Below, piece after piece: positions 29,939 to 41,409 of a DNA stretch of 46,367 nucleotides. The stretch is from contig JAQGKC010000032.1 of the NCBI GenBank assembly GCA_028290305.1, forward strand, positions 1 through 46,367, given 5' to 3'. How positions within the stretch are numbered: position 1 is the first letter of the stretch; each line of letters begins with the position of its first letter. Position numbers and translations under genes: made by a program. The notes under the pieces are model-generated. The model saw only the letters and a list, made by a program, of their open reading frames with translations, was not told the origin of the DNA and did no database searches. The stretch comes from Bradyrhizobium sp. GTDB taxonomy: Bacteria; Pseudomonadota; Alphaproteobacteria; Rhizobiales; Xanthobacteraceae.

Positions 29939-30032
29939 GAGTGCAACCGCCGAAACGGCCGTAGCGGGCCGCGCCCATTATGCCTCAAATGGCCACCATC
30001 AGCGAGTGTCGGTATCGGTGGTTGCGTGTCCC

Positions 30033-30154
30033 GTGCGCCGTGCAAGGCGGCGCTTTCCAGTGGGTGCAAGTCCCACCCGGCACCCGCTCCAGCCGGAAGC
30101 AACCGGAGCAGGCATGGAGGTGACGAAATGTCTGAAGCCTCTGGATATTGAAAC
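30033..30154 (+). mobile_element. Probable group II intron 5'-end remnant
   Basis: The stretch starts GTGCG and contains a stem GTGGG-TGCAAGT-CCCAC, then the GCAACCGG, GAGCAGGCATGGAGGTGACG and AAATGTCTGAAG segments that I associate with domain I of bacterial group II introns. No maturase gene follows: the sequence stops abruptly at about 30155, where reversed 2OG-oxygenase coding sequence begins. It would be a dead fragment left after a deletion. The assignment rests on remembered motifs and needs a covariance-model search. Confidence 0.45.
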
Positions 30155-30499
30155 CTCGATTCCCATGCGACCGTTCCATTCGTTTGCGATGCCGGCAAGA
30201 CGCGGATAGAGCGCCGTGCGGAGACCACCCAGGATATCCGGAAGCGGGTACTTGAAATATTTGTACTCCCCCTTTCCGAATCCGTGGCGCGCCATATGGA
30301 TGTGGCTGCGGAACTGACCTTCCTCGGGGTAGAGCGCCGAGATCTGCCGACACTCGTGCGGCGACAGGAGTTGTCGAATGACAGTGCAGCCGAAGCCACT
30401 CAATTCGTCGGAGAGATTCTTCCAGTCGTATGCGGAGACGCGCGCCTCCGCGGACTTCACCGCGGAGGTCGGGGTTGCGATTGCCAAGCTGGTCTTCAT
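30155..30499 (-). pseudogene. 2OG-Fe(II) oxygenase, truncated at the 3' side
   Basis: From ATG 30499 about 115 codons are coherent (GFGCTVIRQLLSPHECRQIS, ALYPEEGQFRSHIHMARHGF, GKGEYKYFKYPLPDILGG, ALYPRLAGIANEWNGRMG). They match the N-terminal half of the oxygenase commonly found in ada/ogt operons. The catalytic HxD...H core should follow but is missing: after GIEV the frame enters the intron-like sequence and runs to 29999. The start overlaps the ogt stop as ATGA, so it was once the second gene of an ogt operon. It cannot be a functional oxygenase. Confidence 0.75.
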
Positions 30500-31068
30500 G
30501 CCGTTGCTTCCTTGTCGATCAGGGACCGCTTTAGTTCGACGCTCCAGCGATAGCCGGAGATCGTGCCGTTGCTGCGGATGACGCGATGGCACGGTATGCC
30601 GAGAGCGATCGCGTTGGCCGCGCAGGCGCTGGCGACGGCGCGCGCGCCGTTAGGATCACCGATGCGACGAGCGAGCGCTGCGTAGGTGATCGTCGCCCCG
30701 TATGGAATCGTCAGCAGCGCGTCCCATACGCGGCGCTGAAAAGGTGTTCCGTGTCGCATATCGAGCGGCAGCTCGAACCCGTCCGTCGGGCGATCGAGAT
30801 ACTGAGCGACCTTCTCAAGCTCGTCGTTCAGTTTCGAGGCGGTCCACGTCAGGACCCGGTCGGGAAAGCGCGCTTCAAGATCGCTCCGGAGCGCATCCTC
30901 ATCCGCCCCGATCAGGACCGCGCATACGCCGACGACGGTGCGCGCGATAACGATTTTACCCGCGTTGCTGTCTCCGATAGAGAAGACGATATCGTGCGAA
31001 GCGACGGCATCAACCTTCTTCACCGGCGTGATCGGTCGCGAAAGAGCTTCCGTTTTGATCATGTACAT
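30496..31068 (-). CDS. ogt: Methylated-DNA-[protein]-cysteine S-methyltransferase (Ogt/MGMT)
   Basis: 190 residues. It has the N-terminal ribonuclease-like domain followed by the DNA-binding domain with RRVWDALLTIPYGATITYAA, ASACAANAIALGIPCHRV (acceptor Cys in PCHRV) and SGYRWSVELKR. It removes methyl groups from O6-methylguanine and O4-methylthymine by suicide transfer. ATG 31068 or 31062 is favoured; a 75-codon upstream extension is open but carries one of the shared boxes. It is more similar to the C-terminal half of Ada than to short Ogt proteins. The PLD-type spacing of the PCHR helix is intact. Confidence 0.88.
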   Translation of the reverse strand: MYMIKTEALSRPITPVKKVDAVASHDIVFSIGDSNAGKIVIARTVVGVCAVLIGADEDALRSDLEARFPDRVLTWTASKLNDELEKVAQYLDRPTDGFELPLDMRHGTPFQRRVWDALLTIPYGATITYAALARRIGDPNGARAVASACAANAIALGIPCHRVIRSNGTISGYRWSVELKRSLIDKEATA

Positions 31069-31125: not shown

Positions 31126-31147
31126 CACTCCGGTCCTTGCTTTCAAA
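31126..31147 (-). promoter_or_regulatory. Shared box, copy 1 (upstream of ogt)
   Basis: Read on the minus strand: TTTGAAAGCAAGGACCGGAG, followed by TG. It lies 58 bp before the ogt ATG. It is nearly identical to the copy before ada at 35708, differing only outside the core. Confidence 0.65.
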
Positions 31148-31216
31148 AGCATTCTGGCGCGGATAGTAGTTTCGTGCGCCGAGGCTGACGCAGCAGCCAT
31201 TTTGCGCGCGATCATG

Positions 31217-31468
31217 TCACATGACGCGCGTGATCGTCGTCTCCGCGAGGAGAAACACCTCGCCCGACACGAAGCGCAATTCGACTTCATCGTCTTCGAG
31301 CATGCGCCATTCGGCGAATCCGTCGCTAACGAGTTGGCCGAAGTACGTCATGACCAACGCCTTTGCGGGGTCGTGACGGAATCGCTCTGGAATTCCGTCC
31401 AAAATCGCCGCGGTCCCACACGATTTCACGCGTCGCGTCTTGGCGTTTAGCCCGCCGGTCGCAAACAT
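31217..31468 (-). CDS. Small protein of unknown function
   Basis: 83 residues, ATG at 31468. Not a family I recognise. It starts MFATGGLNAKTRRVKSCGTA and continues with a helical segment RFRHDPAKALVMTYFGQLVSD and an acidic tail with LEDDEVELRFVSGEVFLLAE. No signal peptide or membrane helix. Regular codon use and a copy of the shared box 108 bp upstream argue that it is expressed. It lies between alkB and ogt and reads in the same direction, so it may belong to the alkylation response. Confidence 0.6.
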   Translation of the reverse strand: MFATGGLNAKTRRVKSCGTAAILDGIPERFRHDPAKALVMTYFGQLVSDGFAEWRMLEDDEVELRFVSGEVFLLAETTITRVM

Positions 31469-31575
31469 CGACTAGAAACCTTCATTGTGTCGGCCTGGAT
31501 TGTTCTGCGGCCCCAAAGGCGCGCAGCGCGGAAATGCACAATCAGGTGAGAAAAGCACGGCGCTGATTTTGCGGC

Positions 31576-31599
31576 ACTCCGGATATTGTCTTCAAATCC
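31576..31599 (-). promoter_or_regulatory. Shared box, copy 2 (upstream of the 83-residue gene)
   Basis: Minus strand reads ATTTGAAGACAATATCCGGAG, then TG. CTCCGGAT and ATCCGGAG around it form a perfect 8-bp inverted repeat. It lies just beyond the alkB stop codon. Confidence 0.5.
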
Positions 31600-31613
31600 G
31601 GAGCGCACATCGT

Positions 31614-32264
31614 TCACAGCGCCTCGCGAAAGGTGAGGTTCAGCCGCATCCGCCCAACGATTTCGTGGTCGCCTTCCTTCAATTCAGGAACGCCGTGGCA
31701 GCAGAGCCGGGACGGGCCGCCCCACACAGCGACATCGCCATGACGCAGAGCGAACTTCCGGACAGGGTCATTGCGCTTTTGGCCCCCGAACTGGAAGGTC
31801 GCGGGACGACCTAATGAAACCGACACGATCGGATTCGCGAAATTGCGCTCGTTCTTGTCCTGATGCAGAGAGAGCCGCGCGCCCGGTTCGTAGCGGTTGA
31901 TCAGGCAGGCGTCAGGTACGAAGTCCGAATATCCCGCCTCCTTCGCTGAGGCGACCGCGAGATCGAGGAAGCTGGCCGGCATCGGAGGCCACGGCTGTCC
32001 GCTCTCTGGATCCAAGGCATCGTACCGATAGCCGCTCCGGTCGGTCACCCAGCCCGCAGCGCCGCAGTTGGTCATGGCGACGGACATGACGAAGCCGCCG
32101 GGCGTGACCATGTGCCGGAATGGCGACATGGCCGTGATCGCCTGGATAGCAGTCAGGATATCCGCTTCGAACGGGAGGGCTGCACCGCGCAGCAGCAGCG
32201 CGCCCTCAGCCATGACCTCTCGGGGAAGGGTCAACGGAACGATCGGGTCGAAAAGGTCGCTCAT
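31614..32264 (-). CDS. alkB: Alpha-ketoglutarate-dependent dioxygenase AlkB
   Basis: 216 residues. AlkB uses Fe(II), oxygen and 2-oxoglutarate to remove methyl groups from 1-methyladenine and 3-methylcytosine in DNA. Metal ligands are in LHQDKNE (His, Asp) and CHGVPEL (His); RMRLNLTFR supplies the 2OG-binding arginines near the C-terminus. CLINRYEPGARLSLHQD is a strong family signature. The ATG at 32264 gives the normal AlkB length. It follows the DUF72 gene by about 20 bp and is the last member of the ada-led run. Confidence 0.94.
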   Translation of the reverse strand: MSDLFDPIVPLTLPREVMAEGALLLRGAALPFEADILTAIQAITAMSPFRHMVTPGGFVMSVAMTNCGAAGWVTDRSGYRYDALDPESGQPWPPMPASFLDLAVASAKEAGYSDFVPDACLINRYEPGARLSLHQDKNERNFANPIVSVSLGRPATFQFGGQKRNDPVRKFALRHGDVAVWGGPSRLCCHGVPELKEGDHEIVGRMRLNLTFREAL

Positions 32265-32287
32265 CTGTTACTCGTCCTGCATTACCG

Positions 32288-33094
32288 TCAAACGACGCGT
32301 TTCGACAACGACATTGCCGCGTCCGGATTGGCCACCTTGTGGCCGCTGATCACGTAGAGGTAGACGTCGCGCGGCGCGCCTTCGTGTCCCCCCGGCTCGA
32401 CGCGCGCCAGACCATCGGGCGATCCGCCCGAAGCCCAGGTCCGGGCCCTCGCCGCCCACAGGTCCAAGGCCGCCTCTGGGTAGCCCAGCGGCTCACCCTC
32501 CTGCGTGCCCATGATGCGGGCGTAGACGAACGGCGCGGTAACGTCGGCGATCAAAGGGTACTGGGAGTCGGCAACCAATATGACGGCGACGCCGTATTTG
32601 CAGATGAGTGCTACGAACTCCGGCGACAGGAAGCTTTCGTGGCGAACTTCGACCGCGTGGCGAAGCGAGAAGCCGCCAGCTTCCTTCGGTAGCAATTTGA
32701 GAAACGCCTCGAAATCTTCGGGATCGAACTTCTTCGTCGGCATGAACTGCCAATTGATGGCGCCTAGCTTGTGCTTCAATTCCAGTACGCCGCCCGAGAA
32801 GAAGCGCTCGATCGTCTCGCCGGCGTCGGCCAGAACTTTGCGGTTGGTCGCGTACCGGGGCGCCTTCAGGGAAAAGACGAAATCGCCAGGCGTTTCCTCG
32901 AACCATTTGACGAAACTCTCCGGCTTCTGCGCGCCGTAGTACGTTCCATTGATCTCGATCGACGAGAGCCGGCGGCTCGCATATTCGAGCTCCCGCTTTT
33001 GGGGATGCTTCTCGGGATAGAACACGCCGCGCCAAGGCTCATAGGTCCACCCGCCGACGCCCGCCCGAATGATGTCGCTGCTTGTATTCGCCAT
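32288..33094 (-). CDS. DUF72 family protein (YecE-like)
   Basis: 268 residues from ATG 33094, a TIM-barrel of the DUF72 family. Hallmarks are the start GVGGWTYEPWRGVFYP, RRLSSIEINGTYYGAQKPESF, VFSLKAPRYATNRK and an exposed AVEVRHESFLSPEF. The molecular function of this family is not established; members are often near DNA-repair or iron-sulfur genes. Sitting between alkA and alkB in the same direction suggests co-expression with alkylation repair. The frame is open upstream of 33094 without homology. Confidence 0.88.
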   Translation of the reverse strand: MANTSSDIIRAGVGGWTYEPWRGVFYPEKHPQKRELEYASRRLSSIEINGTYYGAQKPESFVKWFEETPGDFVFSLKAPRYATNRKVLADAGETIERFFSGGVLELKHKLGAINWQFMPTKKFDPEDFEAFLKLLPKEAGGFSLRHAVEVRHESFLSPEFVALICKYGVAVILVADSQYPLIADVTAPFVYARIMGTQEGEPLGYPEAALDLWAARARTWASGGSPDGLARVEPGGHEGAPRDVYLYVISGHKVANPDAAMSLSKRVV

Positions 33095-33159
33095 GTGCCT
33101 CTGAGATCCTGATCTTAAATTGCCGTCGGAAAGAGATCGCCCGTCTTCCGATGTCGGGG

Positions 33160-33801
33160 CTATTTGAGGACGTTGCCGCGATCCCGTGGCATCCGCCAAA
33201 GATACCAGGAGGCGACGGTCCGGTGGGGCGCCCACGCTTTGCTGATCTCGCGTAGGGCCTTCGGCTTCGGCTGTTCCTCAAGCGACTTCAAGGCACGATA
33301 GCCCTCGCGCACGCCGAAATCGTCGACTGGCAGAATATCCATGCGCTCCAGCGAATACATGAGCAGCATCTCGACGGTCCAACGTCCAATGCCCTTGATG
33401 GTGACGATCCGATCGATGAGCTCTTCGTCGCCCATCTCGACGGCGATTTCCCTAGGCGGAACGAGACTCGACAGCGCGCCTTCGGCGATCGCCTTGATGG
33501 TCGCGATCTTGCTGGCGGAAAAGCCGCAGGCGCGCAGCGTATCGAAGTCGGCGGCGATGATGTCTTCGGGTGCCGGGAACGGCACGTCGGGGTGCAGCGC
33601 CTTGAGCCGGGCGATGATGGCGTCGCCCGCCTTCGCGGTGAGTTGTTGATATCCGATCGCCCTGACCAGCGCTTCGTAGGGTTCGCGGGCGGCCTTCGGA
33701 TCGTGAAGACATGGACCGACAAGCTTGATCAGTGCGGCCCAGTCGCGGTCGAGTTTGCGAAGAAAGGTGACGGATTTGTCGTAGCGCGCGAAAGTCGTCA
33801 T
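33160..33801 (-). CDS. alkA: DNA-3-methyladenine glycosylase II (AlkA family)
   Basis: 213 residues, helix-hairpin-helix GPD superfamily. LIDRIVTIKGIGRWTVEMLL is the HhH, followed by the catalytic Asp in ILPVDDFGVREGYRA. It excises alkylated bases such as 3-methyladenine. It lacks the N-terminal beta domain of E. coli AlkA, as is usual for the short alphaproteobacterial type. Its ATG overlaps the stop of the phosphatidyltransferase gene by 4 bases, so the two are translationally coupled. Confidence 0.92.
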   Translation of the reverse strand: MTTFARYDKSVTFLRKLDRDWAALIKLVGPCLHDPKAAREPYEALVRAIGYQQLTAKAGDAIIARLKALHPDVPFPAPEDIIAADFDTLRACGFSASKIATIKAIAEGALSSLVPPREIAVEMGDEELIDRIVTIKGIGRWTVEMLLMYSLERMDILPVDDFGVREGYRALKSLEEQPKPKALREISKAWAPHRTVASWYLWRMPRDRGNVLK

Positions 33802-34487
33802 GGTTCCCCGTGGAAGACGGTAGATGCAACGGCGAAGCGCAGCCGGTTACCTATCGTGAGTAGAAGCAGGATTGCGAAGAAGGGCAGAACGAAGCGGGCG
33901 TTCTCCGGCAAACGGCCGAGGCATGCGAGCCAGACGCCAATTGCCCCGACGGCTAAGGAACGGTCCACTTTGCCGAACGGACCTTCGATACGGCGGGAGC
34001 TACCATGGACGGGCCCCACGATTCCGGCGATCTCCGTCAGCATCGTCAGGGAGAGGACAAGCGCGATCCAGACCGGCGGGAACGTCGGCAGGAAGGCCAG
34101 AGGCACGAACATCGCGATGTCCGAAATGATGTCGCCTGCCTCGTTTAAGATGCCCCCGAGCCTGCTCTTTTGACCGAAATCGATCGCGAGCGTGCCGTCG
34201 ATGGTCGCAAGTGCCATGCGGACCAACATCCAAACTGGAAGCAAGCCCCAGACAGGCCCCCCGTCGGCATGGACCGAAAGCAAGGAGCCGACGATGATGG
34301 ATCCGACCAGCGATATGATCGTCATCTGGTTCGCGGTGATCCCTGCCCCGGCAAGCCCTGCCGCTAGAGGCCATAGGGCCCGCTTGAGAAGCGGCTTCAG
34401 GAGATTTAGGGACGTCGCCGCCAGGAACGCCGCACGCGGACGGGAATGGCGCTCCGAAGCGAATGTCATGAGTGAGGGCAACGCCAT
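33798..34487 (-). CDS. CDP-alcohol phosphatidyltransferase family protein, YnbA-like
   Basis: 229 residues with six hydrophobic helices. MALATIDGTLAIDF, then RLGGILNEAGDIISD, is the CDP-alcohol motif in its YnbA form (RMALNALDGMLARE and RLGAILNETGDVISD in E. coli YnbA). Compared with classical enzymes, several motif aspartates are substituted, as in YnbA itself, so catalysis is uncertain. FGKVDRSLAVGAIGVWLA is also YnbA-like. YnbA normally pairs with a CDP-diacylglycerol-synthase-like gene; none is present. Its location inside an ada-alkA-alkB run and overlap with alkA are unexpected for a membrane lipid enzyme. Confidence 0.85.
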   Translation of the reverse strand: MALPSLMTFASERHSRPRAAFLAATSLNLLKPLLKRALWPLAAGLAGAGITANQMTIISLVGSIIVGSLLSVHADGGPVWGLLPVWMLVRMALATIDGTLAIDFGQKSRLGGILNEAGDIISDIAMFVPLAFLPTFPPVWIALVLSLTMLTEIAGIVGPVHGSSRRIEGPFGKVDRSLAVGAIGVWLACLGRLPENARFVLPFFAILLLLTIGNRLRFAVASTVFHGEP

Positions 34488-34547
34488 GGATTCCGACGAA
34501 CGGGTTGCAGGAACGGGAAGAGAGAGGCGGGCGATCGATCGCTGGCG

Positions 34548-35609
34548 TCAAGCGGCGATCGTCGTGTTGGCGGCCTCCCGATCCAGCAGCATGCGCTTGC
34601 GTTCGACGCCCCAGGCGTAACCGGAAAGCGAGCCGTCGTTCCTCACGACGCGATGGCAGGGAATCGCGACCGCCAGAAGGTTGGCGGCACACGCGCCGGC
34701 GACGGCCCGCACCGACTTCGGGGATCCGATCCGCTGCGCGATATCCGCGTAGGATACGGTCTGTCCGACGGGTATCTGCTGAAGGGCCTGCCAGACACGC
34801 TGCTGGAACGCGGTCCCGCGGACGTCGAGAGGAAGGTCGAGACCGAGTCCGGGTGTTTCGATGAAGCCGACGACGCGCGCCACAAGGGCTTCGTAGTCCC
34901 GGTCGGCGCCGATTAACTGCGCCTTCGGGAAGCGATCCTGAAGATCTCGCACCAGCTTGTCGGGATCATCGCCCAGCAGGATGGATGCCACGCCCTTCTT
35001 GCTCGATGCCACCAGAATGGCGCCAAGCGACGTCTGTCCAACCGCGAACAGGATCTTTTCGTTGGAGCCGCCGGCGCGATATTGCGTCGGCGTCATGCCG
35101 AGCATGTCGGTCGACTTGGCGTAGAACCGTCCGCTCGAATTGAAGCCCGCGTCGTACATGGCCTCGGTAACGCTGTTTCCGGACTCCAGCCCCTGACGGA
35201 CTTTCGCGGCCCGATGCGCAGCGGCGTAGTCCTTGGGCGTCAGGCCGGTGGCAGCCTTGAACATGCGGTGGAAATAGCTGGCGCTTCGTCCTACCGCGTC
35301 GGCCAGGTCGTTCAGCGACGGTTCTTCTTCGCGGTCCTCGATCAGGCGACACGCCTTCGCGACGAGAGCGGCGTTCTCGCATTCGAGCGACCGTCCGTCC
35401 GGATTGCAGCGCTTGCACGACCTGAAGCCGGTCGCCTTCGCGCTCTCGAGCGTGTCGTGAAGCTGGACGTTCTTGGGATTAGCGGTTCGCGAGGGACAGG
35501 ACGGCCGGCAATACACGCCGGTGGTCGCGACCGAATACCAGAGATGGCCATCGGCGGTCTTGTCGCGGATCAGAATTCGGGCCCAGCGCGGATCTTCGGC
35601 CACGCTCAT
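34548..35609 (-). CDS. ada: Ada: bifunctional regulator and O6-methylguanine-DNA methyltransferase
   Basis: About 353 residues from ATG 35609 (alternatives at 35648 and 35663; no start has a clear ribosome site). The N-Ada zinc domain has its four cysteines in GVYCRPSCPSR and FRSCKRCNPDG; one is methylated by phosphotriesters and turns the protein into an activator. An AraC-type HTH spans about residues 85-180 (LADAVGRSASYFHRMFKAAT). The C-terminal methyltransferase has IPCHRVVRNDGSLSGYAWG. It probably autoregulates and drives the downstream phosphatidyltransferase-alkA-DUF72-alkB genes. A shared box lies 99 bp before 35609 (60 bp before 35648). Confidence 0.93.
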   Translation of the reverse strand: MSVAEDPRWARILIRDKTADGHLWYSVATTGVYCRPSCPSRTANPKNVQLHDTLESAKATGFRSCKRCNPDGRSLECENAALVAKACRLIEDREEEPSLNDLADAVGRSASYFHRMFKAATGLTPKDYAAAHRAAKVRQGLESGNSVTEAMYDAGFNSSGRFYAKSTDMLGMTPTQYRAGGSNEKILFAVGQTSLGAILVASSKKGVASILLGDDPDKLVRDLQDRFPKAQLIGADRDYEALVARVVGFIETPGLGLDLPLDVRGTAFQQRVWQALQQIPVGQTVSYADIAQRIGSPKSVRAVAGACAANLLAVAIPCHRVVRNDGSLSGYAWGVERKRMLLDREAANTTIAA

Positions 35610-35707
35610 GGGAGACTTTTTCTGGTGGAGTGTTTGGATATGGGCCATGTCGTTTCGATTCATTATCGGAGATGTGGATTAAGGATGCCGCGAGGGGGCG
35701 GCCGTTG

Positions 35708-35730
35708 CACTCCGGTCCTTGCTTTCAAAT
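35708..35730 (-). promoter_or_regulatory. Shared box, copy 3 (upstream of ada)
   Basis: Minus strand reads ATTTGAAAGCAAGGACCGGA, then GTG. The 22-base core is identical to the copy before ogt. It contains GCAA, the known E. coli Ada B-box tetranucleotide, which may be coincidence. Confidence 0.65.
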
Positions 35731-35831
35731 CCGGGGCGACGGAGCCCGTCGCGAAGACTGCAGGACCATAAGCGGCGGGGCCGGCACCGGGCCACCCGAT
35801 TTCCGTCCAGCCGGGGGGCGATGGTTTAGGC

Positions 35832-35863
35832 GTGAGGCCCGCAAGTCGCTTTGCGGGCCTCAC
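35832..35863 (-). terminator. Strong hairpin downstream of the SnoaL-like gene
   Basis: GTGAGGCCCGCAA and TTGCGGGCCTCAC form a perfect 13-bp stem with a 6-base loop, 55 bp beyond the SnoaL-like stop. No T run follows on either strand, so it may act as a Rho-assisted terminator or an RNA-stabilising hairpin. Confidence 0.6.
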
Positions 35864-35917
35864 CCAGGATCAAGAGTTTGCCGTCGCTTAGGATATGTCG
35901 GCGGCGGCGCTTCTCAA

Positions 35918-36367
35918 TCAGACGGCCTTGAACAGGCCGAGCTGCGTGAGAGCCGTGACGCCATCATCGAGGCCGATTTCCTCGACGATCTTTCCATCCA
36001 CGACCTTGAGAACGGTCGTGCCGGTGAAGCGCATCTTGCGGCCGGTCTTCGCGGGCAGCGAACCGATCAGGAAATCGCTGAACGCCGGTCCGGTGTGCGT
36101 GCCGTCGCCTTCCCACTGACCGACGACGTAGTCGCCTTCGGCGATGAGGTCGGCGGTGGCTCCGAACTGCAGATCTGGAAATGCAGCGCGGAAGTCGGTC
36201 ATGAATGCCTTGATGTCGGCATGGCCACGACGCGGTTCGTGAAGCGAATACTTCAGAAGCATGTCCGGCGACGCGATGTCGTCGACGACGCTAAGGTCGA
36301 CCTTCTCGCCCCAGAAATCGGTGAACCACCGAACGACTACTGCCTTGTTGTCTTCTTCTTTGCTCAT
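35918..36367 (-). CDS. SnoaL-like / NTF2-fold ester cyclase family protein
   Basis: 149 residues, cone-shaped alpha+beta barrel. SKEEDNKAVVVRWFTDFWGE is the first helix. The segment with DIKAFMTDFRAAFPDLQFGA is diagnostic of the SnoaL polyketide-cyclase-like group, and VVGQWEGDGTHTGPAFSDFL plus a VLKVVDGKIVEEIGLDD strand follow. Such stand-alone proteins are common in soil bacteria and usually have no defined substrate. It is monocistronic with its own upstream box and downstream hairpin. Confidence 0.88.
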   Translation of the reverse strand: MSKEEDNKAVVVRWFTDFWGEKVDLSVVDDIASPDMLLKYSLHEPRRGHADIKAFMTDFRAAFPDLQFGATADLIAEGDYVVGQWEGDGTHTGPAFSDFLIGSLPAKTGRKMRFTGTTVLKVVDGKIVEEIGLDDGVTALTQLGLFKAV

Positions 36368-36454
36368 TGTTCTCGTCCTGAGTTGATCTCGTTGGGATCA
36401 TCAACGTCCGTCGATGATCTGCGCAGAGACTTACGCTCGCAGGATCGAGCCAAA

Positions 36455-36481
36455 ACTCCGGTTCTTGCCTCGCAATCAAAA
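36455..36481 (-). promoter_or_regulatory. Shared box, copy 4 (upstream of SnoaL-like gene)
   Basis: Minus strand reads TTTTGATTGCGAGGCAAGAA, then CCGGAGT; it carries six extra bases between the TTTGA and GCAAG parts. It lies 88 bp before the SnoaL-like ATG. Confidence 0.5.
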
Positions 36482-36657
36482 CCGCATCGATCGGGAAACG
36501 CATCGCTATTTTTTCTCGGCGATTGATCAGAGCACGATTCGGAATGTGTGCGAACGCCGCATGCATGAAGACCCATGATGTCGGGTGCTTCGAACGAATC
36601 AATTCGTCGAAGCATTCACGAAACTTCGTGGGACTTCTCCTTATGAAGCACGTGCGA

Positions 36658-36678
36658 ATTTGAAGACAAGAAACGGAT
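36658..36678 (+). promoter_or_regulatory. Shared box, copy 5 (upstream of the 119-residue gene)
   Basis: ATTTGAAGACAAGAAACGGA, then T, on the plus strand, 68 bp before ATG 36746. Confidence 0.55.
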
Positions 36679-36745
36679 AGCCTGCTGTTCGTCCATGACC
36701 TTTATCTAGATTTCTAAAGTCGAAGAGATAGAAGGAGTGGAAATC

Positions 36746-37105
36746 ATGAACCAGATCAGTCTTATCCCAAGTGATGTAGCGGAACTCGCCCGCCGTCGCG
36801 GACTGGCCGCCGCGCGGCGAACCCGCGAAACCGAGCGGACGTTGTTGCTCCGTAAGCTGTTCCGGATGGAACGGCAAGCCGGCCATTTGCGCGAGTGGAT
36901 CGCGCAATGGGAAGCAGACGTAGAGGTCTCCCCTGAAATGCGACGCATGGTGGATTGGGTAAAGGCAGAATTGGCAGGATTGGAAGAATTTCTGAATCCA
37001 TCAAGGCTGTCGCAACTACTTCAAACGCGCAATCTATTCCCGAAAGACGACGATCTCTTCGATCCCCTCGGCGAACCACCACCGAAGCGCCCACTGGGTC
37101 GATGA
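36746..37105 (+). CDS. Hypothetical soluble helical protein
   Basis: 119 residues. ATG 36746 follows AAGGAG; a GTG three codons upstream is possible. Not a family I recognise. It is strongly charged and helical (LARRRGLAAARRTRETERTL, then LLLRKLFRMERQAGHLREWI), with an acidic, proline-rich tail LFDPLGEPPPKRPLGR. There is no membrane segment. The high Arg/Glu content suggests a coiled coil or nucleic-acid contact, which is a guess. It has its own shared box, suggesting regulation with ada and ogt. Confidence 0.65.
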   Translation: MNQISLIPSDVAELARRRGLAAARRTRETERTLLLRKLFRMERQAGHLREWIAQWEADVEVSPEMRRMVDWVKAELAGLEEFLNPSRLSQLLQTRNLFPKDDDLFDPLGEPPPKRPLGR

Positions 37106-37371
37106 CGCGGAAGCTACCGCGACGATCGATATCACGGCGGGTAGGACCGATGCCGAGCGCTTCCTTTCACCCAAATCGGCGACCGTCGAGGCTGAGCGAA
37201 CTGTTCCCCTCTTCCGTTTGACGCAGCTTGTTAGGAGCGCGGACCCAATGACCCTGGGTGTCGAAACGTACGTCGGCGGCCGCCGCAACGGCCCCGGACG
37301 GAGAGCGTAGTGCTGCGTCCTGTCATCTTGTCACTGAGCCGAACGCAGGCGCGCCGGCAGGCGAGGAGGTG

Positions 37372-38025
37372 ATGCGGGAAATCCTGGGCGACCGGGAAGC
37401 CGGTCTGGCGGTGACCACGCGGCTCGAAGCACTAAGCGACGGAACGTTCGCGATTATCATCACGTTGCTGGTGCTGGAAATCCATAGGCCCGGCGCAGCA
37501 GTCGGTCACCTGGGAACAGAGCTTCTTCAAGCCTGGCCCTCGTATCTCGCCTATGCGGTGGCCTTCGTCTACGTTGGTGTGATCTGGCTCAATCACCACT
37601 ACATGATCGAGCGGTTACGCAAGTTGGATCTGACTTTCAATTGGCTTAACCTATCCATCTTGGGTACAGCGGCTTTGATACCATTTCCGACCGGCGTGTT
37701 GGCGAACGCCTTTCGCGACGGCAACCTGATGGACCAGAAGGCGGCGGTAGTGCTGTACGCACTGATTGCAGCTCTGATGTCGGCTGCCTGGCTGCCGACA
37801 TTTATTCACCTGAATCGTAATCCGAGATTGTTAAAGACCGGCGTCCCGCCGGGCATGTTCGCAGTCCAAATCGTCCGCCCGGCGATCGGCGTGCTCCTCT
37901 ATGCCGTTGCCGGCTTGCTCGGATGGTTTCTCCATCCAGCGTTCGCGGTGGTGATTTTCGTATTCATCGCCTGTTATTACGCGGCCACCAGTCGTGGTGT
38001 ACGCACCGGCCAATGCGCGATTTAA
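37372..38025 (+). CDS. TMEM175-family (DUF1211) potassium channel-like membrane protein
   Basis: 217 residues from ATG 37372, behind GAGGAGG. It has six hydrophobic segments. The signature [20 protein letters not shown] (about residues 16-35) is the F/L-SD-FAI-TL pore motif of TMEM175 channels. [20 protein letters not shown] and [12 protein letters not shown] follow as in bacterial members, which conduct K+ as tetramers of six-helix chains or relatives. The open frame upstream to 37258 is not homologous. No box is seen upstream and it looks like an independent gene. Confidence 0.87.
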
Positions 38026-38357
38026 GCAGGCTCACGTGTCGGAATGCCCGCCACCAAGGCGCAGGTCCTGATCAAGGAGCTTGTCATCCATCATGAGGGA
38101 TCCGGTCGCTGACTTCGAAGCTTTGCAGCGTCTCGCCCTCAGGCACTAGTTCGAGGAGTCAGCCTATGTCGCCCGTTCCTCCAAAACACATTCGCACCCT
38201 CCAATGCGCCCGCCGCCGCGCCAACGATCAATCGTAGGATCTGCGATTGGTCTCACTGGGAGTAAGACAGAATACCTTTCCCAGATCAGCACGGTGGTCG
38301 GAGCAGTCCGGGGGCTCCGGGCCGGTCTGTCCGAATAGCAACCGGCGCTTACTGCTT
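38026..38357 (+). other. Non-coding gap with gene debris
   Basis: 332 bases without a credible gene. A short frame near 38047 reading MPATKAQVLIKELVIHHEGS resembles coding debris but stops at once. There is no clear promoter or terminator. Confidence 0.3.
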
Positions 38358-38990
38358 TCACGGACTCGGAAGCGCTGGGATCTCAATGGATGTCCCGTCT
38401 GGATCGATCAGGAAAAGCGGCGGGGAGCCAGGCAAGGGAGCGGGCGGGCCGTCGAGCACGAAGCACGCCATCTGCAAATCCCGTGAGGGTCGGCTTGCTC
38501 CGTCGGAAGAAACCAGCGTCACGCCAGCTAGGTCTCGCGTCATCACCGAAATTGCGCCGCCATGGCTTTCGCCAAATTCTGATCTAGGCGCCTCAGCAAA
38601 TCCTGCATTCTCGCGGTACCAGCGCACGGACCTTTCGATATCTGATACGAACACAATGACACTCGGCGTCGTCGGGGCGGCGATCGTGCACGGGCCAAGC
38701 TCCGCTTCGGCGCGTCGAGAGAAGGCGCATTCGATCAACAGGAACAAAGCCAAAAATAGTGCCGACGTTGACGGGTACCCATTTTGGGCAATGGTATCGT
38801 GCGGACCAGGCTGTGATTTAGGAATCGGACGAGCAACAACGTCGGTCGGCCTATAGTAGGCCGACCGCGACCGCGCTGAATCGGACACTTTCTCGGCCCC
38901 AAGATACGTCACGGGCCTCACCCTAATTACTTTCGAGACTTCTGCGATTGAAGTTCGGGTGCGGCAGCAGCGGGGTTCTTCGGCACACAC
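38358..38990 (-). CDS. VOC/glyoxalase-like protein, shortened, possibly exported
   Basis: The coherent part is about 130 residues at the C-terminal end of the frame. A hydrophobic segment SALFLALFLLIECAFSRRAEA resembles a signal peptide, followed by VIVFVSDIERSVRWYRENAG, GAISVMTRDLAGVTLV and PLFLIDPDGTSIEIP, which are VOC (glyoxalase/bleomycin-resistance) strands. The helix and turn normally present between CFVLD and the last strand are missing, so the fold is incomplete. The true start is unclear; no Met lies between the distal one at 38990 and the hydrophobic part. It may be a decaying gene. Confidence 0.5.
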   Translation of the reverse strand: MCAEEPRCCRTRTSIAEVSKVIRVRPVTYLGAEKVSDSARSRSAYYRPTDVVARPIPKSQPGPHDTIAQNGYPSTSALFLALFLLIECAFSRRAEAELGPCTIAAPTTPSVIVFVSDIERSVRWYRENAGFAEAPRSEFGESHGGAISVMTRDLAGVTLVSSDGASRPSRDLQMACFVLDGPPAPLPGSPPLFLIDPDGTSIEIPALPSP

Positions 38991-39187
38991 GTTAACAACG
39001 CCACGTTGCCGCGCGAGGCCGCAATTTCCGAAGCGGGGCTTGGTCCGGCCTGGAGCATGCCGTCGTTACGAACCAAGACCTCCGGAGAAGGAGAGGCGGC
39101 CAAGCGCACGAACAGGTCGCGAAGTCTCGGATGCAAACCGTCGCCGCGCGCAGCAGCAAATTCGTTAAATCGATCTAAAGAGGTCAT
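38927..39187 (-). CDS. Hypothetical small protein
   Basis: 86 residues from ATG 39187. Not a family I recognise. Begins MTSLDRFNEFAAARGDGLHP, followed by LRDLFVRLAASPSPEVLVRN and an Ala/Ser-rich tail. There is no signal peptide. Its only support is a clean frame and the shared box 56 bp upstream. The 3' end overlaps the long upstream frame of the VOC-like gene. Confidence 0.5.
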   Translation of the reverse strand: MTSLDRFNEFAAARGDGLHPRLRDLFVRLAASPSPEVLVRNDGMLQAGPSPASEIAASRGNVALLTCVPKNPAAAAPELQSQKSRK

Positions 39188-39242
39188 AGCTCTGTACTCC
39201 CGTGCCGTGTCTCGTAACGTGAAACGCCAGGGGAGCTCAGCC

Positions 39243-39263
39243 ACTCCGTTTCTTGCTCTTGAA
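39243..39263 (-). promoter_or_regulatory. Shared box, copy 6 (upstream of the 86-residue gene)
   Basis: Minus strand reads TTCAAGAGCAAGAAACGGAG, then T. It forms a mirror pair with copy 7 at 39303 around an ATATTAATAT core. Confidence 0.55.
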
Positions 39264-39302
39264 CTGATCTATGTGTTTCGGCGCGCCATATTAATATTGG
39301 AG

Positions 39303-39323
39303 TTCAAAGACAAGAAACGGAGC
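39303..39323 (+). promoter_or_regulatory. Shared box, copy 7 (upstream of the 125-residue gene)
   Basis: TTCAAAGACAAGAAACGGAG, then C, on the plus strand, 52 bp before the GTG start at 39375. Together with copy 6 it gives a divergent promoter region with boxes on the gene-proximal sides. Confidence 0.55.
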
Positions 39324-39374
39324 GCGGATCCTGCCAGGATGCTCGAATCTGCCGTCACGCAAAAGTAGGATCCC

Positions 39375-39752
39375 GTGACAAACGACATCGACGTCCGCAG
39401 ATTGATCAATTTCGAGACCGCGACCGACGGTACGGCCGTCAGGTTGGTGATCGAGGACACCGCGGGATGTACAATCGGAATCATCTTCACGATCGAGATA
39501 TTGTCGGCCTTGCTGATGACTCTGCCAACTATGGCGTCCAACGCGGTCAAGCGCGCGCACAACGACCCAGCAATGCGTATCACTTATCCGGTAACGGAGT
39601 TTCAGATCGAACTTAGCCCCGGCAATTTCCGCATTTTGACGATCGGGACCCCTGACGGATTCACCGTTTCTTTCAGTCTGACTGAGGAGCTTTCGCAAGA
39701 ACTCGGCGAGGCGCACCTCAATGGCGTCGGTCTGCGAGCCAAAACGCACTGA
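39375..39752 (+). CDS. Hypothetical protein
   Basis: 125 residues from GTG 39375, behind AGGA. Not a family I recognise. Alternating beta-like strands are visible (GTAVRLVIEDTAGCTIGIIF, EFQIELSPGNFRILTIGT, GFTVSFSLTEELSQELGE). There is no membrane segment; the hydrophobic stretch is short. A small all-beta or alpha/beta domain is likely. Its own box and good codon use support expression. Confidence 0.6.
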   Translation: MTNDIDVRRLINFETATDGTAVRLVIEDTAGCTIGIIFTIEILSALLMTLPTMASNAVKRAHNDPAMRITYPVTEFQIELSPGNFRILTIGTPDGFTVSFSLTEELSQELGEAHLNGVGLRAKTH

Positions 39753-39773
39753 CCGAACGCGCCTTCGAAAGAC

Positions 39774-40247
39774 TCAACGGATCGTTCGCACGTTGCTCAA
39801 CTGGATAATTCGATCAGTGGTTGGGGTTGCCACGGTCCCCCGCCCCGTCGGATCCGGCCGCGTCTCGGCAAATTGGCGTTCCATAGCCTCGCGTCCCGTG
39901 GGATCCTGCGAGGTCGCATTCAACTCCCCGATATCGAGGCTGTTGATCCTGTCCGGCTGAACAGACGACTCTTTGAGATCGTCAAGCCGCCGCACAACGA
40001 TCTGTGACGAGCCCGCAGTCTGGGCCAAGATTGCGAGCCTGCGCAAGCCGGAGCGCGCCATTTTCCAATGCTGGATGAGGGGCGCCCAACTACCATTATC
40101 CTTTAGTAGTCCGTTCAGGACGCCGTGAGAGATCGGATCCTCTGGAATCAAGGCTCCGATGCTCGCGATCACGTCGACGACATGCGGACCGGATGAAAGC
40201 TCGACCACAAGGCCGGTCTTGTCATCGTCGAAACGTACTAGCTTCAT
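39774..40247 (-). CDS. Protein with FAA-hydrolase N-terminal-like domain only
   Basis: 157 residues. The start MKLVRFDDDKTGLVVELSSG and the HVVDVIASIGAL segment resemble the small N-terminal domain that precedes the catalytic barrel of fumarylacetoacetate-hydrolase-family proteins (about residues 1-70). The catalytic domain is absent: the rest (WAPLIQHWKMARSGLRRLAI, then a Pro/Thr-rich tail) does not match. It may be a stand-alone domain or a truncated gene. A variant shared box lies 61 bp upstream. Confidence 0.5.
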   Translation of the reverse strand: MKLVRFDDDKTGLVVELSSGPHVVDVIASIGALIPEDPISHGVLNGLLKDNGSWAPLIQHWKMARSGLRRLAILAQTAGSSQIVVRRLDDLKESSVQPDRINSLDIGELNATSQDPTGREAMERQFAETRPDPTGRGTVATPTTDRIIQLSNVRTIR

Positions 40248-40620
40248 TATGTCTCTCCGCGATCAAATGATGTCCTGCACGAAGGTAGCCAGGATCACGC
40301 TGCTCGAACCTCGATTCTCGCCTTCGAATCAAATTCATTCTGTTCATTTGGAAGCAGGAATTGGAGTGCCGTCACGCTCTGCCGTCGCGCAAGCTGCGCG
40401 TATCCTCAAGCTGGATTTCCCGATGAACTACAATGACGATTCTGCGGCTGGCGTATCCGATCGCGAGCCTATGGCCGGGGGCGAAACAGAATGGATTGCC
40501 GGTTCGTCAAGGATGCGCCAAGCCTATGCCACCACGCGACTAGGCCGCGAGGCTGCGATTTTTCCGCCGATGCGGTGCATTCCAAGGACGTGGAATCGCG
40601 GCGCGCTGACTATGCATTCC
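40248..40620 (+). other. Gap with a box copy and an interrupted frame next to the IS
   Basis: 373 bases. Apart from box copy 8 at 40308, a plus-strand frame from ATG 40423 (MNYNDDSAAGVSDREPMAGG) runs into the IS remnant. It has no ribosome site and no recognised family, and could be a gene fragment left by the IS event. Confidence 0.25.
40308..40333 (-). promoter_or_regulatory. Shared box, copy 8 (divergent, upstream of the 157-residue gene)
   Basis: Minus strand reads ATTTGATTCGAAGGCGAGAA, then TCGAGGT. It is the most divergent copy: GCAAGAACCGG is replaced by GCGAGAATCGA. GATTC and GAATC flank it as a small inverted repeat. Confidence 0.4.
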
Positions 40621-41354
40621 GTCCAGCCAATCAGGTCGCCCTCCCAATGGCCTGGCACCGCACGATCTTCAACCGACGGCGGTCGCTCGCGGATGGACAC
40701 GGCATTCTTGATCTGACCGAGCCCGTTTCGCTTCATGCTGGCGTGCCTGGATCGGCGGACCGTGCGCCTCGCCCTCAGGTGCTCAAGAAGCTCCTTTTTC
40801 AGCACGCCGCGCGCCTGAATGAACAGGCTGCGATAGATCGTCTTGTGTGACACCTGCTTTTGAGGTTCCCCCGGATATGTACGCTTGAGCCAGCCGGCAA
40901 TTTGCCCCGGTGACCATTGCCGCTGCAGCAAGGTTGATACTGTCCGCCTCAAGAACGGACGGCAAGCCAGCTTGCAAAGCTTGGGGCGCTGCGCCCGATC
41001 CCAAGCGGCCTGATCGGACCCCGCAGCCCGATAGCGACCCGCCCCGCCATTGCGCTCGACTTCACGGCTGATGGTTGACGGAGCCCGTCCCAAGTGGCGT
41101 GCGATCGACCGCAACGAGCAGCGCATGCTGAGCCACCGAGATATCTCCTCCCGTTCAGAAAGGCTGAGCGCCTGTTTGCCACGGTGCCGATCCGGTGGAC
41201 GGATGCCGCCGGTCGGCGAGATCACTGAGAAGACTGACGAGGACTCCCGGTCAAATCGGCGTCCGATCGAACTCATCGGCTCGCCGGCCTGCCAGCGATC
41301 CCAGATCTCGGATCGCTGGGCTGCCGAGTAATAAATGCGACGTCGCTGCTTCAT
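40621..41354 (-). pseudogene. IS30-family transposase, 3'-truncated
   Basis: From ATG 41354 about 245 codons match IS30-family transposases: two helix-turn-helix regions (LSLSEREEISRWLSMRCSLR, SIARHLGRAPSTISREVERN), WSPGQIAGWLKRTYPG, and the first DDE aspartate in VPGHWEGDLIG. The sequence then departs from the family (next expected is a GSKNSYIATLVER-like strand), so the second Asp and the Glu are lost. The frame continues to 40524 without homology. It cannot transpose. Confidence 0.85.
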
Positions 41355-41409
41355 ATCACACTCCATCTTTGCTAAAGATTAGAGTGTTGCGCTGACCAAT
41401 TGAGCCCGC
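40621..41409 (-). mobile_element. IS30-type insertion sequence remnant
   Basis: The transposase remnant plus its 5' flank, ending at a GGTCAGCGCAACACTCTAAT sequence at about 41384-41403 (minus strand) that looks like the terminal inverted repeat. No matching repeat is visible on the left, consistent with a deleted end. It separates the repair/stress genes from the ligase cluster. Confidence 0.65.

Follow-up and report, generated by a model that had tools for sequence, protein, structure and literature searches.

Candidate A + B + X operators of a full-length Ada regulator in Bradyrhizobium sp. and their relation to the E. coli-like Ada and Cada2 systems

Operators of the Ada family have been described in two forms that are treated as distinct. 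The published Ada box, AAT-N6-GCAA, consists of the A and B boxes (PMC3788762, PMC4437013), and the operator of Cada2 consists of the B and X boxes and is set apart from the E. coli-like A + B type (PMC10957082). According to PMC10957082, about 7% of genomes carry both regulators, with auto- and cross-regulation, and in Caulobacter the reporter induction is abolished by the Cada2 substitution R114A as well as by scrambling of the B + X site. The exchange of motifs between Pseudomonas putida and E. coli failed, for which the authors suggest spacing or small differences (PMC3788762). In the present work, a stretch of 46,367 nucleotides from Bradyrhizobium sp. (assembly GCA_028290305.1, contig JAQGKC010000032.1, positions 1 to 46,367; hereafter the window) was analyzed, in which a repeated box stands upstream of ada, ogt and several further genes. 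The new part is the combination of the A, B and X boxes in one operator, where the published systems are presented as either A + B or B + X; neither an A + B + X operator nor SnoaL in the Ada response was recognized in a literature search covering titles, abstract openings and passages, with subscription papers outside of it. We consider it probable, at roughly 0.85 and judging from sequence comparison, that the full-length Ada encoded in the window uses these boxes as its operators, with A, B and X read by its three modules.

The box in the window and before ada in other phyla

All eight copies of the box claimed in an earlier note on this DNA are present, seven strong and one weak, at the right places, with the coordinates shifted by 1-2 nt. 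The 20-mer consensus given there described a real box but started inside the A box and ended before GTG, because of which the composite site with a fixed -10 had been overlooked. With up to 3 mismatches, this consensus is matched 6 times in the window, where 0.01 matches would be expected (100 shuffles), the copies 39244-39263 (-) and 40309-40328 (-) being seen only by aligning the named places. The matrix A1, built from 61 ada-proximal sites of other genomes only (sites originally located with a window-derived matrix), gives at 12 bits or more 9 matches in the window, 0 in the reversed window and 2 in total over 30 base shuffles; the ninth copy, 40347-40366 (+), had escaped the earlier note.

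The predicted operator of ada lies at 35708..35731 (-) (copy 35710; 41.6 bits by A1, as for all scores of the copies below), with GAT as the A box, GCAA as the B box, CGGAGTG as the X box and a -10-like CATCCT at 35682-35687. That of ogt, 31126..31149 (-) (copy 31128; 30.0 bits), shares with it, as had been noticed, an identical 22-mer on alignment and has a -10-like TACGTT at the fixed distance. Further candidate operators precede the 83-aa gene 31217-31468 (-) (operator 31575..31598, -; copy 31577; 25.8 bits; family boxed in 9 loci), a SnoaL-like gene (36454..36477, -; copy 36456; 18.9 bits), the 119-aa gene 36746-37105 (36657..36680, +; copy 36659; 25.6 bits; family boxed in L132 and L133), the small gene 38927-39187 (39242..39265, -; copy 39244; 26.0 bits; family boxed in 5 loci) and the 125-aa gene 39375-39752 (39301..39324, +; copy 39303; 20.1 bits; family boxed in 2 loci). 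The operator of the 157-aa gene 39774-40247, at 40307..40330 (-) (copy 40309), is weak (12.7 bits), with GCGA for B and CGAGG for X; the same gene family is preceded by the box in L218 and L219. The ninth operator, 40345..40368 (+; 20.6 bits), has no recognisable gene and faces a transposase-like open reading frame (ORF) at 40524-41366 (-), so that the gene which it once served may since have been displaced.

From the box end to the start codon there are 60, 109, 47, 89, 68, 57, 53 and 62 nt (copies in coordinate order), which agrees with the span of about 50-110 nt proposed before. Among the eight reported copies, the A box is GAT in 4, AGT in 2, AAT in 1 and CTT in 1; the B box is GCAA in 4, those of ada and ogt included, ACAA in 3 and GCGA in 1; and the in-register CGG of the X box is found in 7, the eighth having CGA. 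At the -10 place, A at +43 and T at +47 occur in 4 of the 8 copies (31128, 35710, 39244, 39303), the -10-like TAAGTC in copy 36456, and neither base in three copies.

The Ada loci, which are the best 80 of 585 relatives of the window Ada in one scan, span Alpha-, Beta- and Gammaproteobacteria, Acidobacteria, Corallococcus and Zavarzinella. With the window-derived matrix at 9 bits or more, the box stands upstream of ada and in its direction in 67 of the 80 loci, a count that leaves out L032 (its match was judged not a site) and 12 further loci with less than 9 bits near ada; at 15 bits or more the same matrix has 6 matches in the reversed loci. A Cada2-type motif is found in five of the low-scoring loci (L009, L016, L017, L022, L025), and the other seven (L002, L011, L012, L019, L026, L030, L074) have no box of at least 9 bits right upstream of ada and, L074 aside, no Cada2-type motif at up to 3 mismatches (looked for in L001-L034 only). 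Eight Ada proteins (L060, L064, L065, L067, L068, L075, L192, L195) miss two to four cysteines of the Zn domain, and the operator upstream of them is retained.

The logo of the 67 sites is a 24-bp element, (A/G)AT-TYGAAA-GCAA-GRNN-CGGAGTG, followed 20 nt on by TANNNT. The second base of the A box is A in 65 and the third T in 66 of these sites; strict TANNNT at +42 is present in 30, while the base at +43 is A in 59 and that at +47 is T in 51. Since the conserved -10 is downstream of the box, the box lies upstream of the transcription start. With a threshold of 14 bits, A1 has 190 matches in 1.53 Mb of loci DNA (63 of them identical to a training site) against 0 in the same DNA reversed. The GCAA likeness to the E. 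coli Ada B box, pointed out before, is supported by the conservation before ada, and of the two refuting outcomes named at that time, matches placed at random with respect to gene starts and a box not conserved in related genomes, neither was seen in relatives. Because the box precedes ada in these loci and tracks full-length Ada, the alkylation regulon is well supported; the conservation across phyla, the co-occurrence with full-length Ada and the downstream genes also argue for the predicted operator role.

The X box, the second helix-turn-helix and rival explanations

The window ada gene, 34548..35663 (-), matches the NCBIfam equivalog NF011964 with 429.8 bits (cut-off 345) and Pfam PF02805, PF12833 and PF01035; its product has a Zn domain with four cysteines (52, 56, 83, 86), a first helix-turn-helix (HTH1) with SYFHR, a second (HTH2) with SSGRFY, where R is Arg179, and a C-terminal methyltransferase with PCHR. 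Solved Ada structures span window residues 19-159 and 190-366, with HTH2 in none among the matches listed; for the HTH region, an alignment with MarA 1bl0 spans residues 8-96 of 98 (E 0.021). Most of the E. coli-like Ada proteins surveyed have an Arg in HTH2, aligned with that of RLHD in Cada2, together with the X box.

For covariation, the site was placed by the A + B half alone, and the X place was then read. From 131 Ada-like ORFs found, 110 were kept (score at least 300, enough upstream DNA), the RVY/RIY class L120, L121, L129 and L193 being dropped; set aside were also 13 Arg proteins with a half-site below 10 bits, 5 of which have CGGAG at one mismatch at most, and L196 (genome same as L062), L207, L211 and L213. 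The in-register CGG was found with 74 of the 91 kept proteins having the Arg (88 distinct, 71 of these with CGG) and with 0 of the 6 without it; the misses include five apparently spurious half-sites from Mesorhizobium (L011, L012, L017, L019, L025). With the gammaproteobacterial set added, the counts are 85 of 104 with the Arg179-type residue versus 0 of 7 without it (Fisher 1.9e-5, kinship ignored). The X variant follows HTH2: the usual X is CGGAG for RFY and CGGAT for RVY/RIY, RLHD is paired with CGGG(T/C)GG, and proteins with no Arg have no in-register CGG. The divergent Ada class with HTH2 RVY or RIY comprises L120, L121, L123, L129, L193, L211 and L212, with CGGAT, CAGAT or TGGAT replacing CGGAG. 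The Caulobacteraceae E. coli-like ada genes L161-L173, L175 and L176 have A + B + X, and CGGGAAG is present in L174 and L177 and CGGGAGG, in a poor site, in L178. The Cada2-like proteins of this family, L182-L190, lack a Zn domain, carry RLHD or RLYD in HTH2 and have B + X at the same spacing without the A box, in sites CAAGNNN-CGGG or close to it, looser in L187 and L190.

Several points weigh against a reading of all three boxes by Ada. The covariation ignores phylogeny: five of the seven non-Arg proteins come from the draw of Enterobacterales (the order of Edaphovirga), one is that of E. coli and one, L209, is from the class-wide draw. In four of the seven (L082, L083, L084, L104), CGGG stands one base further on, out of register, so that an X-like element may survive with non-Arg Ada; the X place of L093 is CGCAG. 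Conversely, the Arg occurs without the X box in L090, L208 and L210 and with an out-of-register CGGG in L192; six more Arg proteins have sites of the CAGAG, TGGAG, GGGAG or CGAAG type, scored as misses or variants; and RFY is accompanied by CGGGA in L198, L200, L072, L174, L177 and L178 and by CGGAT in L202. E. coli Ada works without an X box. As to the A box, its first base is weak (A 42, G 23 of the 67 ada sites), AAT itself occurs in just one of the window's eight copies, and the eight Ada proteins with lost Zn cysteines mostly keep AT-rich A positions.

Part of these points would fit an explanation in which CGGAGTG is a conserved, -35-like part of the core promoter that is not read by HTH2 of Ada: it stands at about a -35 distance from the conserved TANNNT, and CGGG is kept one base away in the four promoters of non-Arg Ada. 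We regard this as unlikely, since the X sequence varies with the HTH2 class from RFY through RVY/RIY and RLHD to no Arg, and since R114A in Cada2 is reported to reduce the promoter binding (PMC10957082).

The link of the box to the full-length Ada was followed within the genus Bradyrhizobium. A box was present in 13 of 13 genomes with full-length Ada versus 1 of 85 without it (98 genomes; Fisher 2.6e-15) by the site model R1 at E 0.06 or lower, a limit chosen after viewing the list, at which 14 of the 98 genomes matched; at E 0.05 the counts are 12 of 13 versus 1 of 85, and at E 0.5 some match appears in 43 of the 98. Weak sites may be missed in this count because a first look gave several thousand candidates per genome, of which just 77 were scored, under strict filters. 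The lone boxed genome without full-length Ada, G280 (locus L142), was counted as a miss; its match precedes a 461-aa frame common to four weaker matches and may be noise. Full-length Ada was called by open-frame length and place, with G300, G229, G232 and G295 individually found not to be full-length, G227, G301 and G264 confirmed, and the other long fusion-type frames classed by length and place. An AdaA-type regulator was rejected as the reader of the box, as the genomes with only short or fusion PF02805 matches have no box at E 0.06, G280 excepted.

The main reader of the boxes might also be a Cada2-like regulator encoded outside the window, and not the window Ada, given that Cada2-like proteins are present in 98 of the 98 genomes of the genus and that the X box is common to Cada2 operators. 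This seems quite improbable: the Cada2 operator of the genus, TCGGAAATCGGGTGG, which stands before Cada2 itself, differs in sequence, and the A-B-X box goes almost only with full-length Ada. The distance of 47-109 nt from box to start codon would also suit an RNA element of the 5'-untranslated region, the alternative offered in the earlier note, which has to be given up as very improbable in view of the conserved -10 downstream of the box and of no Rfam match at the boxes at the gathering threshold. Mobile elements in the neighbourhood (the transposase-like ORF and, at 30058-30153, a group II intron fragment) would suit a dispersed mobile repeat, but this origin, like chance similarity, was rejected as extremely improbable in view of the cross-phyla conservation before ada, alongside the orientation, the gene distance and the 0 matches in reversed DNA.

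With the boxes taken as operators of the window Ada, alkylated DNA or a methylating agent would methylate Ada, and methyl-Ada would bind to the 24-bp sites, using three modules on each: the A box, (A/G)AT, would be contacted by the Zn domain, the B box, GCAA, which follows after six bases, by HTH1, and CGG of the X box by HTH2 through Arg179, the contacts being each about one helical turn apart. As the X box ends 20 bp before the conserved TANNNT, the bound Ada would lie against or over the -35 region and recruit RNA polymerase. Its targets would be ada with the genes behind it, ogt, the SnoaL-like protein and several small proteins.

Boxed genes and a candidate second operator of ada

The regulon census covered 107 loci with boxes of at least 14 bits, the classes being assigned by reading sequences except where Pfam was run. 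Of 204 boxes (201 distinct with flanks), 120 stand before Ada/Ogt-like genes, 29 before SnoaL-like genes (29 loci), 9 before the 83-aa family, 5 before the family of the gene 38927-39187, 5 before 2OG-Fe oxygenases, 4 before nucleotidyltransferase-like and 4 before flavin-reductase-like genes, with others at 2 or less each; 17 have no recognised gene behind them. In the window, the boxed ogt, 30496..31068 (-), is an O6-methylguanine methyltransferase gene (PF01035, TIGR00589), and the small unknown genes, that of 119 aa included, belong to no Pfam or NCBIfam family over the cut-off. Four genes are colinear with and downstream of ada at 31614..34487 (-): CDP-alcohol transferase-like (33798-34487, -), HhH-GPD glycosylase (33160-33801, -), a 268-aa gene (32288-33094, -), presumably DUF72, and AlkB-like (31614-32264, -); from the gene spacing, ada and these four would form one operon. 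Downstream of ogt, a 2OG-Fe oxygenase-like gene at 29999-30592 (-) loses its likeness to relatives near an Rfam match to the group II intron RF02003, 30058-30153 (+); its relatives elsewhere have Ada- or Cada2-type operators.

The boxed SnoaL-like (NTF2-fold) protein is encoded at 35918..36367 (-) (PF07366, E 2.8e-30), its nearest solved relative being the predicted ester cyclase 8ysb (E 3.4e-8). Its orthologues occur in 25 of the 80 Ada loci and are boxed in 24 (at least 12 bits, the first base of the box 99-161 nt before the gene), the sole unboxed one, in L008, being split over two frames; thus, the SnoaL-like gene is a constant member of the Ada-box set. In the genus Bradyrhizobium, 28 of the 98 genomes have SnoaL relatives, among them each of the 13 that hold full-length Ada, and of the 30 SnoaL loci the 13 in Ada islands are boxed (at least 14.8 bits) and the other 17 unboxed. 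A protective role of the protein may be supposed; among the papers listed for SnoaL or ester cyclase together with Ada and alkylation, no mention of SnoaL or ester cyclase was found. In G216, G222, G253, G255, G260, G280, G281 and G287, a gene of a second SnoaL class (56-58% identity) is found at about 1-1.2 kb from AdaA-type Zn genes, so that SnoaL seems tied to Ada regulators of different kinds. On an Agrobacterium plasmid (L194:143-1569), an NTF2-family gene overlaps the ada start by one base.

A candidate Cada2-type operator, ACGGAAATCGGGTGG, is located at 35792-35806 (-), on the upstream side of the ada box at a distance of about 60 nt, with 1 mismatch to TCGGAAATCGGGTGG and a possible -10 TATGGT at 35765-35770. 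It is the sole such site in the window, and no match to TCGGAAATCGGGTGG at up to 1 mismatch was met in 50 base shuffles of the window. The motif (up to 3 mismatches) is upstream of ada in 13 of the 34 loci L001-L034 versus 0 of 34 reversed, and before full-length ada also in L254 and L259. Its degenerate form, TCKGRAAWCGGGTGG, is found in 96 of the 98 genomes of the genus, at 338 sites versus 4 in the backwards control; in 30 loci the motif precedes Cada2-like genes (six read), 2OG-Fe oxygenases (5), HhH-GPD-like glycosylases (4) and others. Among the SnoaL loci that lie outside Ada islands, 16 of 17 have (A/G)AA(A/T)CGGG(T/C)GG before SnoaL instead of the Ada box. The B part goes with HTH1 of Cada2: LHH and TCGGAAA in the genus Bradyrhizobium; LQK and mostly CAAGAA or CAGGAA in the family of the Mesorhizobium G005, which we take to be Rhizobiaceae; FQR and CAAGAA in Caulobacteraceae. 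In a survey of 49 proteins, 9 of them without a site under the rule used, FQR was paired with CAAGAAN in 7 of 7 cases, LHH with CGGAAAT or CGGGAAT in 10 of 10, and LQK was mixed. A chromosomal Cada2 would prime ada through the Cada2-type operator, the order being Cada2 and then Ada.

Comparison with the described systems

These relations can be joined in one reading, which in our estimate is evenly balanced: a modular Ada-family code in which the Zn domain would read A, HTH1 would read B and HTH2 would read X, A + B + X being common and perhaps ancestral. E. coli would have lost X with the Arg of HTH2, and Cada2 the A box along with its Zn domain; the B boxes would drift with HTH1 while X stays CGGG with RLHD; Cada2 would prime ada by way of a tandem promoter; and SnoaL, swapping Ada- and Cada2-type operators yet staying in the alkylation response, would be a conserved, unstudied effector. 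If so, the E. coli-like Ada and Cada2 systems would be one code of three boxes, each tracking one module, HTH2, absent from the solved structures listed, would be the part that is missing, a reason would be given for the failed promoter exchanges, and the SnoaL-like protein could be named a conserved alkylation-response gene.

With the E. coli Ada operator, the window shares an equivalog regulator and, upstream of ada and repair genes, equally spaced elements of A- and B-box type, which match AAT in one and GCAA in four of the eight reported copies. The E. coli locus (L191) has AAAATTAAAGCGCAAGATTGTTG, with no in-register CGG and with SSSYY in HTH2, whereas the window box adds X; moreover, the distance from the first base of B to the start of the -10 is 35 nt here and, counted by hand, 40 nt to what we take to be the -10 of L191. 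The P. putida alkA and ada promoters likewise have A and B boxes, with a weak A-box dependence reported, but A and B alone were defined there (PMC3788762); if the exchanged P. putida piece was without an X box, this could be another reason for the failed exchange. The Caulobacter Cada2 operator has B and then X in the same order, and its HTH2 Arg, in RLHD, aligns with that of the window Ada (PMC10957082). The B-X spacer is given there as 3 bp, whereas 4 (GANN) were counted in L182-L190 and here, and X continues as AGTG in the window-type box but mostly as GCGG in Cada2. The Cada2 regulator has no Zn domain and its site no A box (L182-L190), whereas the window Ada and its predicted operator have both.

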